Shown in pieces: positions 19,904 to 25,807 of a DNA stretch of 44,099 bases. The position numbers and the translations under genes are program-made. Below the pieces are notes generated by a model that saw nothing but the letters and a program-made list of their open reading frames with translations, searched no databases and was not told the DNA's origin. Location of the stretch: positions 1 through 44,099 of the forward strand of contig CALULC010000004.1 in NCBI GenBank assembly GCA_944321385.1. The letters run 5' to 3'. Numbering within the stretch: position 1 is the stretch's first letter; each line of letters begins with the position of its first letter. Source of the stretch: an uncultured Atopobiaceae bacterium (GTDB taxonomy: Bacteria > Actinomycetota > Coriobacteriia > Coriobacteriales > Atopobiaceae).

Positions 19904-19933
19904 ATTGTAAGGGTCAAAACGGCGGTCTGTCAA
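19904..19933 (-). promoter_or_regulatory. rpmH operon promoter
   Basis: TTGACA (19933-19928, exact consensus) and TACAAT (19909-19904, five of six), 18 bases apart, read toward rpmH. It lies in the origin-side intergenic segment. Confidence 0.85.
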
Positions 19934-20120
19934 TTTTTTGTGATGACAATCTTCACGATTACTTCGCAGGTAGCTGGCTGAAAGAGAGAATCCTTCCCGC
20001 TTGGGTCAGCCGCTCACCGTCTTGAGAAAGTTCCATACGGTTGGATTCATCCTTTCATACAACGAAATAGTTCTTCCCGCGTGTTATGATTTTTCAGCAC
20101 GAGAGACGCAGATTCTCTAG

Positions 20121-20213
20121 TTATCAACAAGTGTTTTACAGATGTTGAAAACTTTCGTTCAAATAGAATTCTCATTGAAATGTTTTCTACAAATGACGAA
20201 CGGATGTTGAAAG
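20121..20213. other. oriC segment 1: DnaA box cluster
   Basis: Within an AT-rich gap between rpmH and the GHKL-wHTH gene lie four DnaA-box-like 9-mers: TTATCAACA (20121-20129), TGTTGAAAA (20143-20151), TTTTCTACA (20183-20191) and TGTTGAAAG (20205-20213). All share A or T where the Escherichia coli box TTATCCACA has the second C. The last one overlaps the ribosome site of the next gene. The rest of this gap (19934-20120) holds nothing else I can name. Confidence 0.65.
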
Positions 20214-20221
20214 GGGAGCAC

Positions 20222-21199
20222 ATGGCCAGAGACTTCTATCCGTTCGTTGAGAAGGAAGGGGAAGAAAGCGGCTCGGAGAAGATAGAGGCGAGGCACCCGG
20301 CCAGAATCGCCGTATACGACGACGCCTCCGCCGCGCCCCGAGTTGTTGTCATCGAGCCGGGCGAGGTTCGCTCCTACCTCGAGGAGATCACCGCCACCGT
20401 GAGCAGGCTCTCCAAGGAACAGGGCGGGAACATCCCCTTCATGGTCATACGAGAGATCGTGGAGAACTTCATCCACGCGTACTTCCAAGCTCCAACCATC
20501 ACCATCCTCGACGACGGAAACACCATCCGCTTCTCGGACCAAGGTCCCGGAATCAAAGAGAAGTCCCTTGCGCTGGAGTTTGGAACGAGCTCCGCCACGG
20601 AGGAGATGAAGCGCTACATACGAGGCGTGGGAAGCGGGCTTCCCTACGTCCAGCAATACATGGCAGACAAGGGCGGAAGTCTTGAGGTGGAAGACAACAT
20701 CGCCGGCGGAACCGTCGTGACCATCTCCACCAGGCCAAAGGAGGGCGCACGGGCGGTGTCCGGGGCGAGCAGGGAAGACGCGCCGCCCGAGGTTTCGCAG
20801 CCCCCCGCATATGTTGGCTATTTCCAACAGCAGTGGCAGCAGCCATTTCCCCCAGCTTCTCCCCAAGCGCAGGCCTATCAGCAGATGCCCTACGGCACCC
20901 CACTCCAGCAGCCTCCCGCGCAGGGCGTCCCCGCCTGGCAGGCACCCATTCCCGCTCCCGTGCCCTCAGCCACAGCGACACCCGCCACGGCTCCCCACAT
21001 TGATTTCGACGAGCGCTCATCGCAGGTCATGGACTACCTCTCCACCCATGAGAGCACCGGCCCAACGGAGCTCGTAAGAACATACGGCTCCTCCGGTGCA
21101 ACGTGGTCAAGGACCCTCTCCTCCCTGGCGGCCCAGGGTGTGGTAACCAAGATTGGCCAGAAGTACCATCTGACGGGCATCGGCCGCGCGCTCGTCTAG
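20222..21199 (+). CDS. GHKL-type ATPase domain fused to winged-helix DNA-binding domain, origin-linked
   Basis: The 325-residue protein starts MARDFYPFVEKEG at ATG 20222 after AAAGGGGAG. Residues about 50-172 form a histidine-kinase-like ATP-binding fold: N box EIVENFIHA (78-86), DQGPGI (106-111), GVGSGLPYVQQYM (135-147), and NIAGGTVVTIST. There is no phosphorylatable-His domain or membrane segment. A Pro/Gln-rich linker (about 185-258) leads to a C-terminal winged helix (262-325: SSQVMDYLSTHESTGPTELVRTYG....LAAQGVVTKIGQKYHLTGIGRALV). It lies between two DnaA box clusters directly before dnaA. I do not know a named function; control of initiation or of dnaA is the obvious hypothesis. Confidence 0.85.
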   Translation: MARDFYPFVEKEGEESGSEKIEARHPARIAVYDDASAAPRVVVIEPGEVRSYLEEITATVSRLSKEQGGNIPFMVIREIVENFIHAYFQAPTITILDDGNTIRFSDQGPGIKEKSLALEFGTSSATEEMKRYIRGVGSGLPYVQQYMADKGGSLEVEDNIAGGTVVTISTRPKEGARAVSGASREDAPPEVSQPPAYVGYFQQQWQQPFPPASPQAQAYQQMPYGTPLQQPPAQGVPAWQAPIPAPVPSATATPATAPHIDFDERSSQVMDYLSTHESTGPTELVRTYGSSGATWSRTLSSLAAQGVVTKIGQKYHLTGIGRALV

Positions 21200-21213
21200 G
21201 ATTTCCCGAGAAG

Positions 21214-21254
21214 TTGTCAACAATCGCTATACTAGAGCCCCATAGTTTTCAACA
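21214..21254. other. oriC segment 2: DnaA boxes in the dnaA leader
   Basis: TTGTCAACA (21214-21222) and TTTTCAACA (21246-21254) flank a TATACT (21228-21233) in the 72-bp gap before dnaA. The layout fits DnaA autorepression. No clear -35 element is seen. Confidence 0.6.
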
Positions 21255-21271
21255 ATCGGGATGCGACATAG

Positions 21272-22828
21272 ATGGAACTCACTCTGGAATCGGACGCCGA
21301 GGCGCTCTGGCAGGACACCCTCGACCTTCTTGCCACCAAGAACCTGCCAGAATCGACGCTCGCCATGCTCAGGGGCTGCACCCCAAAGAGCATGTCGGAC
21401 TCGGTCATGACCATCGAGACTCCCATGAGGCTCGTCCTCAAGACCATCTCAAAGAACGCGGAGATCATCGAGGAGTGCCTCTCGCAGGCGGCGTTTGAGC
21501 CAATGACCCTGGACGTCAACTTTGTTCCAACAACGCAGCAAACGACGAGTCGCCCCTCCTCGACGATGTCACGCGAGGAGGTCAACAGCTGGACCGCTGC
21601 CACGACGTCTTCGAAGGTTTCGTGGGACGGACCCACTCCCAAGAAGATCGCCGAGGACACCTGGGAGGAAGATGGCATAGACGCCATCCGGGAGGAGGCG
21701 GCAAGACGGAGGAGAAACAACCCCCTCGTCGAAGAGATCTCTCCGACCACCTCAAAGCTGACCTTTGACCGATTCGTCCGAGGCGAGGAGAACGACATCG
21801 CCTATCAGGCGGCCCTCCAGGTTGCAAACGGCATGAACAGCACCTACAACCCCCTGTTCATCTACGGCAAGAGCGGTCTTGGAAAGACGCACCTGCTCCG
21901 CGCCATCCAGAACTACGTTGCGCACAACGACCCGTCTCGCCTGTGCGTCTATCGCGACGCCTCCTCCTTCATCACGGACTACACCGAGGCCATGCGCCAT
22001 TCGGAGCGCTCGGCGGCCTCGGTCCTTCGCCAGAACTACGCAGACATAGACGTCCTCATCATCGACGACATCCAGAAGATGACCGGAAAGATGGGAACCG
22101 TCGGGTTCTTCTTCGACACCTTCAACGAGCTCATCGCAAACGGCAAGCAGATCGTGCTCGCCGCAGACCGCACCCCCGCCCAGCTCGGGATGGGGAAGGA
22201 CGGCTTTGACGAGCGCATCACGAGCCGCCTCTCCGCGGGCTTCACCACGCCCATCCAGATTCCCAGCTACGAGCTCAAGCTCCGCCTCATAGAGACCTTC
22301 TGCGAGCGGATGCGCGAGGATGCGCTCCGCGAGAACGTGGCGGGCCTCACGGGAACAGTCTCCCCGGAGATAGAGAGCTACATGGCCGAGCGCGCGGGCA
22401 CCAACATCCGAGTGATCGAGGGCTTCTGCCAGCGGTGCCTCTATGCCGCCACGGCCGCCGAGAAGCGCGGAGAGAAGCTCGAGAAGGACGAGATAGAGTC
22501 CATCGCGCGCGAATGCTGGCCGAGCTCGGGCAGAACCGTCTCCATCGAGGACGTCCAGCGGGCCGTGGAGAAGTTCTATGACATCGACCATCTCACCCTG
22601 ATCGGCAACAAGCGCAACAAGGGCGTCATGGAGGCCCGACACGTGGGCATCTGGCTCTCCCGAGAGCTCTGCGACCGCACGCTGGCAGACATCGGCAAGC
22701 ACTTCGGAGGTCGCAGTCATGCCACCGTCATGCACAGCATCGGAGTCGTAGATGACGCCCGACGCGACGACAAGAGCTTCTATGATCGTCTTATGCAGTT
22801 GAGGGAGAGCATCACCGGCAATGTGTAG
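21272..22828 (+). CDS. dnaA: chromosomal replication initiator DnaA
   Basis: DnaA binds boxes at oriC, forms an ATP-dependent filament and opens the duplex. The 518-residue protein has domain I (1-85), a poorly conserved linker (86-150), the AAA+ domain with GKSGLGKT (199-206) and VLIIDDIQKM (261-270), and domain IV with EARHVGIWLSREL and GGRSHATVMHSI (479-490). In most DnaA proteins the recognition helix reads GGRDHTTV or a close variant; here Ser replaces Asp and Ala replaces Thr. The nearby boxes are correspondingly unusual. ATG 21272 has a weak ribosome site. Confidence 0.96.
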   Translation: MELTLESDAEALWQDTLDLLATKNLPESTLAMLRGCTPKSMSDSVMTIETPMRLVLKTISKNAEIIEECLSQAAFEPMTLDVNFVPTTQQTTSRPSSTMSREEVNSWTAATTSSKVSWDGPTPKKIAEDTWEEDGIDAIREEAARRRRNNPLVEEISPTTSKLTFDRFVRGEENDIAYQAALQVANGMNSTYNPLFIYGKSGLGKTHLLRAIQNYVAHNDPSRLCVYRDASSFITDYTEAMRHSERSAASVLRQNYADIDVLIIDDIQKMTGKMGTVGFFFDTFNELIANGKQIVLAADRTPAQLGMGKDGFDERITSRLSAGFTTPIQIPSYELKLRLIETFCERMREDALRENVAGLTGTVSPEIESYMAERAGTNIRVIEGFCQRCLYAATAAEKRGEKLEKDEIESIARECWPSSGRTVSIEDVQRAVEKFYDIDHLTLIGNKRNKGVMEARHVGIWLSRELCDRTLADIGKHFGGRSHATVMHSIGVVDDARRDDKSFYDRLMQLRESITGNV

Positions 22829-22833
22829 GACAA

Positions 22834-23050
22834 TGTAGAAAACCGCGTGGGAAGGTTGTTGAAAGGAGGAGAAAAGTCACGTTCTGGTGTTGAGAATTTT
22901 GGGACCCGCTCTTCCGCTGTTCATGGGTGTCAATTTTCAAGGGTCTCTCAGAAAGCTATCTTGAGGACTCTGAACTCAGTAAACACCGACTTGTCTTCTT
23001 TTCTACAACCCCTATTACTACTACTGTCTTTAATTCTTATTACTTACTAG
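22834..23050. other. oriC segment 3: DnaA boxes, DnaA-trio and AT-rich unwinding region
   Basis: The dnaA-dnaN gap contains TGTAGAAAA (22834-22842), TGTTGAAAG (22857-22865), TGTTGAGAA (22888-22896) and TTTTCTACA (22999-23007). The last box is followed by CCCC (23009-23012), which overlaps triplets that read on the minus strand TAG-TAA-TAG-TAG (23023 back to 23012), then the AT-rich tract to 23050. Box, short GC tract and T/A-A-G/A triplets is the arrangement described for the basal unwinding element of Bacillus subtilis oriC. This is the best candidate for the site of duplex opening. Confidence 0.65.
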
Positions 23051-23064
23051 AAGAAAGGGCCAAG

Positions 23065-24171
23065 ATGAAGTTCACCGTAAGCCAGTCCTCGCTCATGAAG
23101 GCCCTGTCCGTCGTGTCAAAGGGCATGGGGAACAACTCCACGCTCCCTATACTCTCCGGAATCTACCTCAAGGCGGAAAACGGAACCGTTGAGCTGCAAA
23201 CCAACAACCTCTCCATCTCCATTCGCCACGTCATAGCCGCAAACGTGGAGGAGTCTGGTGAGACGGTGGTCTCCGGCAAGATCCTCCTCAACATCGTTAA
23301 GACCCTCTCGGACTCCGCCGTCACCTTCGAGGAGACGGGAAGCATGGTCACCATCTCCTGCGATAAGTCAACGTTTAGGCTCAACACGCTCAGTGCCAGA
23401 GACTGGCCCGCATGGAGCGAGCTCGAGCCGGAGCGCACGATCGAGCTCCCGAGTGCCCTTCTCGCCAAGATGGTGGACAAGGTCTATCGCGTTACCTCCA
23501 AGGAGCCGACTCGTCAGTTCCTGCAGGGCATTCAGATTACCGTCGAGAACAACACCATTAGGCTCGTTGCCACGGACTCCTTCAGGCTTGCGGTGTGCGA
23601 CTCCACCGTCGCGGCCGCTCCCGACGAGCCCTTCTGCTCGGTCATCATGGGCTCCGTCTTCCATGACGTCCTCTCCATGCCAACGATGGAGGACACGGTC
23701 TCCATCTCCACGACGCAGAGCCAGGCCGTCTTCTCGTTTGGCACGACGACCTTCGTGACCAGGCTCCTCGAGGGCAACTTCCCCTCATACCGCCAGCTTC
23801 TTCCGTCCTCGTGTGCCACGGCCGTCACGCTGGGCGCCCAGGAGTTCTCCTCCGCGCTCAGGCGCGTCTCCGCAATCGCCCAGCAGAATGCGTCCATTCG
23901 TCTTGACGTGGACGCAGACGGCTCCCTCATGAGGCTCTCCTCCTCCTCGCCCGACCAGGGAGAGTCCTCCGAGATCATGTCCTGCAAGGTGGAGGGTCAG
24001 TCGCTCACGATCGGGTTCAACTACCACTACGTGCTCGACTGCATGAGCGCCGCTTCGGACTTTGGCGAGGTGCGCCTCGAGCTCCAGAGCCCCGCTCACC
24101 CGGGAATCTTCAAGTGCAACGGCAAGATTAACTACCTCTATCTCCTCATGCCGATGCGCCTGGGCGCCTAG
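23065..24171 (+). CDS. dnaN: DNA polymerase III beta subunit (sliding clamp)
   Basis: The beta clamp tethers polymerases to DNA. The 368-residue protein begins MKFTVSQSSLMKALSVVSKG and has the three-fold clamp repeat with KEPTRQFLQGIQITVENNTIRLVATDSFRLAVC in the middle and YLLMPMRLGA at the C-terminus, where other clamps end in a PVR/MPMR motif for partner binding. ATG 23065 follows AAAGGG; the longer in-frame extension back to 22927 runs through the AT-rich origin element and was rejected. recF starts three bases after its stop. Confidence 0.96.
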   Translation: MKFTVSQSSLMKALSVVSKGMGNNSTLPILSGIYLKAENGTVELQTNNLSISIRHVIAANVEESGETVVSGKILLNIVKTLSDSAVTFEETGSMVTISCDKSTFRLNTLSARDWPAWSELEPERTIELPSALLAKMVDKVYRVTSKEPTRQFLQGIQITVENNTIRLVATDSFRLAVCDSTVAAAPDEPFCSVIMGSVFHDVLSMPTMEDTVSISTTQSQAVFSFGTTTFVTRLLEGNFPSYRQLLPSSCATAVTLGAQEFSSALRRVSAIAQQNASIRLDVDADGSLMRLSSSSPDQGESSEIMSCKVEGQSLTIGFNYHYVLDCMSAASDFGEVRLELQSPAHPGIFKCNGKINYLYLLMPMRLGA

Positions 24172-24174
24172 AGG

Positions 24175-25269
24175 ATGGGCCTTGTCGTCAAAGAACTCAG
24201 GCTCGCGGACTTTCGCAGCTTTGAGAGGCTCGAGCTTCGACCCTCGGAGGGGGTCACCGTTCTGGTGGGACCCAACGCGGCGGGAAAGACCAATACCGTG
24301 GAGGCGCTCCAGCTTCTGACGGCTGGTTCCTCGTTTAGGAAGCCCACGCCAAGACAGCTCGTCCGCGACGGCGCCGAGTCCGCGCGCATCGATGCCCGCC
24401 TCGAGGGTGACGGTCGCGTCGTAGACGTTCGCTGTGACGTGACGACGACGCCGCCCGCGCGGCGCTTCTCGAGAAACGGAAAGCGCTGCCAGGCTTCCGA
24501 GGTGCCGGAGAGTCTGATGTCTGTGCTCTTCTCTCCAGACGACCTCGCGCTCGTCAAGCGCGGAGCGTCGGTGAGAAGAGACGAGCTCGACGGCTTTGGT
24601 CGTCAGGCCAGCAGTGGCTTCTCGAGGGTCCTCTCCGAGTATCAGAGGGCCGTGGAGCAGAGAAACCGTCTCCTCAAGGAGGAGAGGCCGGATCTCTCGC
24701 TGCTCGACGCCTGGGACGCCTCCGTCGCCCTGGGAGGGTCCGCCGTCCTGTCAGCGCGTCTGAGGCTCTTCTCCCGGCTTGCGGACAAGCTGAGGGAGGC
24801 CTACGCCTCCATCTCCTCGGGCGAGGAGCTTGAGTGCCGCTATGTGTGCAGTCTGGGAGAAGAGGCCCTCGTGAGCGACAGGGAGTCGCTCAGGGAGCTT
24901 TTTCTCGAGTGTCTTGCGAGCACCAGGGAGAACGACCTGAGGCGCCAGCAGACCTGTGTGGGTCCCCATAGGGATGACGTTCAGTTCCTCGTCTCCGGGC
25001 GTGACGCCCGCGCCTTTGCGTCGCAGGGGCAGCAGCGCTCCATAGCGCTCGCCCTGAAGATGGCGGAGGTCGAGCTTGCGGAGGAGATCTTGGGGGAGAG
25101 GCCGGTCCTTTTGCTCGACGACGTGATGAGCGAGTTGGACGAGCGCCGCCGAGCCGCCGTGGTCGACTTCGTGGGCAGGGGTATCCAAACGCTCATAACA
25201 ACGACCAACCTTGGTTACTTCTCGCATGACATTCTTGAATATGCCGAGGTGGTGAGCTTTGGTGGGTGA
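24175..25269 (+). CDS. recF: DNA replication and repair protein RecF
   Basis: RecF is an SMC-like ATPase that recognises gapped DNA and helps load RecA. The 364-residue protein has Walker A GPNAAGKT (32-39), RDELDGFGRQASSGFSRVL, CVGPHRDDVQFLVSGRDAR, the signature FASQGQQRSIALALK and Walker B/D-loop PVLLLDDVMSELDERRR. ATG 24175 lies three bases after dnaN, using AGAGG as ribosome site. Operon with dnaN and the DciA-type gene. Confidence 0.95.
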   Translation: MGLVVKELRLADFRSFERLELRPSEGVTVLVGPNAAGKTNTVEALQLLTAGSSFRKPTPRQLVRDGAESARIDARLEGDGRVVDVRCDVTTTPPARRFSRNGKRCQASEVPESLMSVLFSPDDLALVKRGASVRRDELDGFGRQASSGFSRVLSEYQRAVEQRNRLLKEERPDLSLLDAWDASVALGGSAVLSARLRLFSRLADKLREAYASISSGEELECRYVCSLGEEALVSDRESLRELFLECLASTRENDLRRQQTCVGPHRDDVQFLVSGRDARAFASQGQQRSIALALKMAEVELAEEILGERPVLLLDDVMSELDERRRAAVVDFVGRGIQTLITTTNLGYFSHDILEYAEVVSFGG

Positions 25270-25807
25270 CCAAATAGTCGACGAAGTTCGTCGTAGGGAA
25301 CAAAACACGACAAATGTCGGCGGTTTGATGGGCCTGGTTGTGGAGCACCTTGCGACTCCGTGCGCGCGTGACTCCCAAAACGAGGCCTGGTTGGCGTGGA
25401 ACAGGGTGAACGGAGATGTTGAGCGCACACACACCTCGGGTGTGTACGTGGGTGAGCCCCGACGGGGTGCGCGCGACCCCGAGCTCACGGTCTATGTTGA
25501 CTCTTCCTCGTTCATGACGGACTTCTCCGCAAACCACGAGGTGTATCTCGCGCGCCTAGAGAGCGTTGGGCTTCGATTCTCCAGAATCGAGTTTCGCCTC
25601 TCCAAGAGGTCTGCCCAGAAGAAGGACGCTGCTCCCGCGCGCTCCCGCGTTGAGAAGGCTGCGTTGCCAAGGGAGCTCCCCAGTCTCCTGCCGGACGAAG
25701 AGGAAGAGATAGAGAAGCTCTGCTCGGCGCTTCCCGCAAACCTGAGGGAAAGCGTTTCTCAGGCGATGAGAGTCTCCATCAGAGCACAAAAGCAAGAACA
25801 TAGCTAA
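25262..25807 (+). CDS. dciA: DciA-like (DUF721) helicase-loader protein
   Basis: The 181-residue protein carries the DUF721/DciA domain: NEAWLAWNRVNGDVERTHTSGVYVG...ELTVYVDSSSFMTDFSANHEVYLARLES. DciA proteins bind the replicative helicase DnaB and replace DnaC/DnaI in most bacteria. The position between recF and gyrB is the usual one in actinobacteria. The C-terminal third is Arg/Ser/Glu rich and likely disordered. GTG 25262 (nine bases after GAGGTGG) overlaps recF by eight bases; TTG 25259 is an alternative. Confidence 0.78.
   Translation: MGDQIVDEVRRREQNTTNVGGLMGLVVEHLATPCARDSQNEAWLAWNRVNGDVERTHTSGVYVGEPRRGARDPELTVYVDSSSFMTDFSANHEVYLARLESVGLRFSRIEFRLSKRSAQKKDAAPARSRVEKAALPRELPSLLPDEEEEIEKLCSALPANLRESVSQAMRVSIRAQKQEHS

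Follow-up and report, generated by a model that had tools for sequence, protein, structure and literature searches.

A gene that encodes an ATPase domain of the GHKL type joined to a C-terminal winged helix directly precedes dnaA in most tested lineages from the older branches of the Actinomycetota. Constant adjacency, short distances between the two genes, their persistence as a pair at a rearranged locus and the co-divergence of the two proteins support a functional tie to dnaA or to the replication origin. Here, we analysed this gene in a stretch of 44,099 nucleotides from an uncultured, Olsenella-like gut bacterium of the Atopobiaceae (hereafter the window, meaning the whole stretch). We define the dnaA-linked GHKL-winged-helix family by position directly before dnaA, presence of both domains and the invariant residues E78, N82, H85 and D106; the window gene is a member.

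Domain architecture and constraint

The open reading frame starts with an ATG preceded by AAAGGGGAGC and stops with TAG; an alternative in-frame ATG is located at 20180. The gene is single-copy in its genome. Its parts are:

20222..21199 (+): GHKL-winged-helix gene, 325 amino acids plus stop codon (open reading frame, Pfam, AlphaFold2, orthologues)
20231..20248 (+): motif DFYPFV at the N terminus (residues 4-9), shared by most Atopobiaceae members; low model confidence
20294..20737 (+): GHKL ATPase domain, about residues 25-172 (Pfam, alignment, AlphaFold2, structure comparison, Ka/Ks)
20738..20992 (+): disordered Pro/Gln/Ala-rich linker, residues 173-257 (pLDDT mostly 41-75, linker lengths, Ka/Ks)
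20993..21196 (+): C-terminal winged helix, residues 258-325, with the conserved Arg297 in its recognition helix (Pfam, AlphaFold2, structure comparison, alignment)

A preliminary description of this DNA, made from the letters alone, had claimed an intact ATP site, a C-terminal winged helix, a missing kinase phospho-acceptor domain and a Pro/Gln-rich linker. The first three claims were borne out. The N box (REIVENFIHA), DQGPGI and GVGSGL are all exact in the window protein, and Pfam HATPase_c matches residues 74-170 above its cut-off (E 7e-11). In numbered form, the ATPase motifs are E78-xxx-N82-xx-H85 (N box), D106-x-GPGI (G1), G135-V-G-S-G139 (G2) and G163-T. In an AlphaFold2 model built with an alignment of 54 rows, pLDDT exceeds 90 both for a GHKL fold that spans about residues 25-172 and for a winged helix at about 262-325, and the linker between them is of low confidence. 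When the model was compared with solved structures by VIA-align, its GHKL domain aligned with SpoIIAB, with histidine-kinase CA domains and with PDK/BCKDK at Z about 11, and its winged helix (258-325) with MarR-type wings at rmsd 1.1-2.8 and Z 11-12. By motifs and fold, the window protein thus belongs to the GHKL (Bergerat-fold) superfamily. The modelled C-terminal domain has a wHTH fold, for which DNA binding is predicted; winged-helix Pfam models match residues 264-324, each below its threshold (HVO_A0261_N 1.9e-7, HTH_IclR 8e-4). Across the family, HATPase_c was matched in all 54 members and winged-helix Pfam families in most. The approximately 70 residues before the N box gave no HisKA-type match and form two strands and one helix of the GHKL fold in the AlphaFold2 model; with no phospho-acceptor (DHp) domain before the ATPase, the protein is not a sensor histidine kinase, and this candidate was rejected.

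The linker claim was borne out as well, with one refinement: the long Pro/Gln-rich form is a trait of Coriobacteriia members, and the linker spans 8-31 residues in most deep relatives, varying in length and sequence among members. A variable tail separates the DFYPFV motif from the ATPase domain; some deep members begin with MKDFLQRV or similar, which is predicted as a helix at locus L147. In one Atopobiaceae MAG (L063:3001-3914 and L030), a frameshift in the linker splits the two domains, reflecting either a sequencing error or decay.

Thirteen residues are invariant in 54 diverse members (E78, N82, H85, D106, G108, P109, G110, G121, G135, G137, G139, G152 and G163), most of them in ATP-site motifs; by their roles in the superfamily, Glu78 would be of the catalytic type and Asn82 would bind Mg. 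Of the 54 members, 49 retain Arg297 of the recognition helix. In close pairs, Ka/Ks of the ATPase domain (0.02-0.10) was below that of dnaA (0.04-0.23) in five of five comparisons, with 0.13-0.27 for the winged helix and 0.28-0.51 for the linker; these ratios are approximate, as the dnaA values cover the whole gene with its variable domain II and as synonymous distances approach saturation in some cases. Among close relatives, purifying selection is hence stronger on the ATPase domain than on DnaA.

Position within the origin region

That the gene lies between clusters of DnaA boxes, immediately before dnaA, had also been proposed in the preliminary description and was confirmed, with boxes at 20121-20213 upstream and 21214-21254 downstream of it. 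The surrounding features are:

20085..20090 (+): putative extended -10 element (TGtTATGAT) ahead of the four-box array; Atopobiaceae conserve it as ATGCTATGATTTT (alignment)
20121-20129 (+), 20143-20151 (-), 20183-20191 (+), 20205-20213 (-): four DnaA-like boxes forming a symmetric array (box scan)
21214..21254 (+): two DnaA boxes, TTGTCAACA and TTTTCAACA, starting at 21214 and 21246 in the 72-bp gap before dnaA (box scan)
21272..22828 (+): dnaA, 518 amino acids (gene call, family match)
22834..23007 (no strand assigned): second origin cluster, with DnaA-like boxes in the dnaA-dnaN gap, starting at 22834, 22857, 22888 and 22999
23065..24171 (+): dnaN, the next gene after dnaA (gene call)

The strict box TTNTCMACA occurs seven times in the window compared to 1.03 expected, a number reached in none of 100 shuffles, and five of the seven fall within 20121-22896. 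A relaxed search, which allowed one mismatch to TTTTCAACA, gave the three box clusters listed above. Pooled box density per kb was 3.1 upstream of the gene, 7.6 in the gap before dnaA and 4.1 after dnaA, compared to 0.1-0.4 inside both genes. Boxes before the gene, before dnaA and after dnaA place the GHKL-winged-helix gene inside a bipartite origin region, where it occupies the place at which dnaA itself usually starts. The extended -10 element is tentative, as it has no good -35 and was not called by a consensus promoter scan. On the other strand, a near-consensus rpmH promoter (TTGACA-18-TACAAT, 19904-19933) is strongly conserved across Atopobiaceae.

The four-box array recurs with the same spacings (22, 40 and 22 bp) at 26 of 45 Atopobiaceae-type loci, where it carries 2 to 6 mismatches in total versus shuffled means near 18; some other loci, e.g. 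L046, keep the symmetry with shifted spacing. In deep relatives, a different triple-box element that is just as highly conserved, TTTTCCACA-nn-TGTGGAAA-nnnn-TGTGGATAA, is located about 60-310 bp before the gene (seen at L082 and L127-L163, deep Actinomycetota), and its convergent DnaA-box pair was found at 19 of 28 deep loci versus 0.01 expected. Three further observations concern individual origins. A perfect 31-bp inverted repeat with a 20-bp spacer and DnaA-like boxes lies just before the orthologous gene at L046:2878-2959, and imperfect 34-36-bp versions of it occur at L038, L052 and L054. At L131 and L132, the dnaA-dnaN gap holds 15-16 DnaA boxes, far above other lineages, which suggests that their main origin cluster lies there. 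In the window, a 182-amino-acid open reading frame without a Pfam match (25259-25807) sits between recF and gyrB and, judged by this position, may encode a diverged DciA (helicase loader).

Distribution and linkage to dnaA

Orthologues were found in 51 of the 60 nearest genomes, in 266 of 298 Coriobacteriia genomes (254 of the 270 good ones) and in 160 of 396 genomes sampled across the Actinomycetota, where a few of the weakest matches may be histidine kinases. Carriers include Olsenella, Thermophilibacter, Tractidigestivibacter, Parafannyhessea, Collinsella, Berryella wangjianweii and an Anaerosomatales MAG, and many other deep actinomycetotal families beyond Coriobacteriia have the gene as well. 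The preliminary description had framed the search by Coriobacteriia; the gene is indeed found there, but its family extends beyond this class and a few lineages have lost it. Large-genome lineages among the families without a match are taken to be Actinomycetes. A mobile or phage origin was rejected, with no match in 72,556 plasmids and none of 26 candidate stretches on viral contigs confirmed.

Sixteen genomes gave no convincing match. In ten of these dnaA was undetectable as well, which makes an assembly gap at the origin likely; frequent genuine loss was therefore rejected. In two others with dnaA present (G030 and G144), the contig breaks off close to where the gene would be expected. Four genomes from three families (G208, G267, G113 and G066) show an unbroken stretch from rnpA to dnaA without the gene, and their absence is taken as real loss. 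As these four origins are contiguous, the gene is not an absolute requirement for initiation; it is very stable, yet dispensable in some lineages.

Does the gene always precede dnaA, as the preliminary description had raised for Coriobacteriia? Among distinct genes whose flanks were long enough to check, dnaA came next on the same strand in 111 of 111 cases, which rules out a chance neighbourhood. Seven of seven further chromosomes give the same order when read across the join, as the contig stops just behind the gene and opens with dnaA. The distance between the two genes is 0-24 bp in most deep families, implying one transcript with dnaA; in Atopobiaceae, including the window, dnaA is set off from the gene by roughly 50-260 bp that contain DnaA boxes. 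At the Eggerthellaceae locus L080, dnaN is divergent upstream and rpmH/rnpA lie downstream of dnaA, and the gene still stands before dnaA. Protein distances of the GHKL-winged-helix protein and DnaA were correlated over 77 loci (Mantel r 0.87; none of 1000 permutations reached it, the best being 0.23), a value that is as expected for vertical co-inheritance, judged from these sequence distances.

In the genome of the window, domain I of DnaA has diverged so far that Pfam DnaA_N gave no match even at E 10, and the AAA+ and C-terminal domains match well. A special DnaA domain I as partner of the GHKL-winged-helix protein was considered and rejected, because domain I looks ordinary in deep carriers of the gene and there is thus no correlation.

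Relation to known proteins

The order of a GHKL-like domain and then a winged helix already exists in DIP2311 of Corynebacterium diphtheriae (PDB 3lmm), which is the only solved structure among the matches listed that spans ATPase to winged helix (Z 15.1 over 222 residues against model residues 3-325, rmsd 9.3, 18% identity). The high rmsd and low identity indicate a domain arrangement different from that of the window protein. The match covers residues 197-496 of the 3lmm chain, the earlier part of which has no counterpart in the window protein. We take DIP2311 to belong with the COG2865-type AlbA_2/HATPase_c_4/winged-helix regulators; in the window protein, however, HATPase_c_4 was not reported by Pfam, and the AlbA_2 (Schlafen-like) domain is missing, the N terminus ahead of the GHKL domain being no more than disordered sequence or a short helix. 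The parts are thus already known, and the tie to dnaA together with the conservation deep in the phylum is the interesting part.

SpoIIAB and RsbW resemble the window protein as stand-alone GHKL domains without DHp and with E-xxx-N in the N box, and the SpoIIAB structure 1til aligns with the model at Z 11.6 over 127 residues. Unlike them, the window protein has an added winged helix and linkage to dnaA, with no STAS gene noted beside it; its histidine is at N+3 rather than at N+4, the latter position being known from the SpoIIAB/RsbW family, and it matches HATPase_c rather than HATPase_c_2. From proteins of the MutL/GyrB type, whose ENxxDA motif resembles the window N box E-xxx-N-xx-[H/D]-A, it differs by its much smaller size and the lack of a transducer domain, and its C-terminal half is nearer to histidine-kinase catalytic domains. 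With the latter, it shares Pfam HATPase_c and aligns at Z about 11 (CpxA and HK853), but it has no phospho-acceptor histidine, carries a glutamate in the N box and ends in a putative DNA-binding domain. A family profile searched against known chains matched BCKDK (1.2e-7), the N-terminal region of MutL (1.7e-5) and SpoIIAB (3.8e-4). Neither NCBIfam nor Pfam holds a family for the whole protein, and no description of such a dnaA-linked gene was found in the open-licence literature. To our knowledge, the established regulators SirA, YabA, Hda, DiaA and Soj share no domain with it; like them, it may act on DnaA or the origin.

Proposed role and alternatives

The conserved ATP site and the arginine of the recognition helix fit an ATP-dependent DNA-binding switch, as far as residue conservation can tell. 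We give about an even chance to the reading that the protein regulates the dnaA operon and the origin by binding DNA under the control of ATP. Within deep-branching Actinomycetota, it is an old constituent of the dnaA operon that has been passed on vertically. Its GHKL domain would bind ATP and, by analogy with related GHKL proteins, the ATP state may change dimerisation or contact with a partner. Through its winged helix, held on a flexible linker, the protein would bind the stretch rich in DnaA boxes that lies before its own gene, and might there tune transcription of the dnaA operon, loading of DnaA at oriC, or both. Against this reading stand the four contiguous origins that do without the gene, the lack of an operator among the enriched upstream motifs and the ordinary look of DnaA domain I in deep carriers, which hints at no special interaction. 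In addition, a place in the operon may stem from shared expression alone, with no direct effect at the origin.

Such a role could be confined to expression: as a pure autoregulator of its operon, the protein would sense ATP and set the level of dnaA (and dnaN) without touching the replication machinery. Its gene opens an operon-like unit that continues with dnaA, a promoter-like element and the box array lie directly before its start codon, and its winged helix is of the MarR/TrmB/IclR type. On the other hand, the separate gap with DnaA boxes in Atopobiaceae suggests a possible promoter of its own for dnaA in these bacteria, and a search for enriched 8-mers upstream of the gene yielded only DnaA boxes with their symmetric surroundings, the rpmH promoter and promoter-like elements, hence no operator for the winged helix. 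We regard this explanation as rather unlikely. Alternatively, the protein could be a kinase or an anti-sigma-type partner switch similar to SpoIIAB/RsbW or PDK/BCKDK, with E78 as general base, which phosphorylates or sequesters a partner, possibly DnaA, and uses the winged helix only for placement at the origin. We kept this explanation because a glutamate four residues before the N-box asparagine is known from the kinases SpoIIAB and PDK as well as from the ATPases MutL and GyrB, and because the profile matches BCKDK, MutL and SpoIIAB, the structures of the latter at Z about 11. Yet the alignment with histidine-kinase catalytic domains is just as good, so that the fold is no guide here, no gene for a STAS-domain or sigma partner adjoins and the conserved partner is dnaA; we consider this second alternative unlikely. 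It is quite improbable that the protein is a general regulator with no part in replication whose gene stays beside dnaA because the origin region rarely rearranges, as do the non-replication genes rpmH, rnpA and yidC, since unlike these the gene sits between origin boxes and dnaA, often abutting the latter, remains paired with dnaA at L080 despite rearranged dnaN and rpmH, and has no second copy in its genome.

The ATP-controlled regulator of the dnaA operon and origin can also be conceived in a more far-reaching form, which we consider possible but doubtful: an ancestral actinobacterial initiation factor, switched by ATP and encoded in the same operon as DnaA, that would bind the origin, act as a gate for its firing or for the loading of DnaA, and have been lost towards Streptomyces and mycobacteria.

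Significance

Most knowledge of DnaA regulators comes from E. coli, Bacillus and their relatives. YabA gave no match above its cut-off in 149 genomes of the class, so that one known DnaA regulator is missing there. For mycobacteria, the abstract of PMC5720831 states that no homologues of such DnaA regulators or of helicase loaders had been identified, and this gap together with the absence of YabA above its cut-off leaves initiation control in these lineages open. A protein locked to dnaA across much of the phylum is a specific candidate for the missing initiation control of deep-branching Actinomycetota, which include common gut bacteria, and the stricter conservation of its ATP-site domain compared to DnaA in close relatives adds to its candidacy as a replication regulator. 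If the ancestral initiation factor were real, its loss in the branch towards Streptomyces and mycobacteria would mean that an initiation factor has been missed by all work on model organisms.
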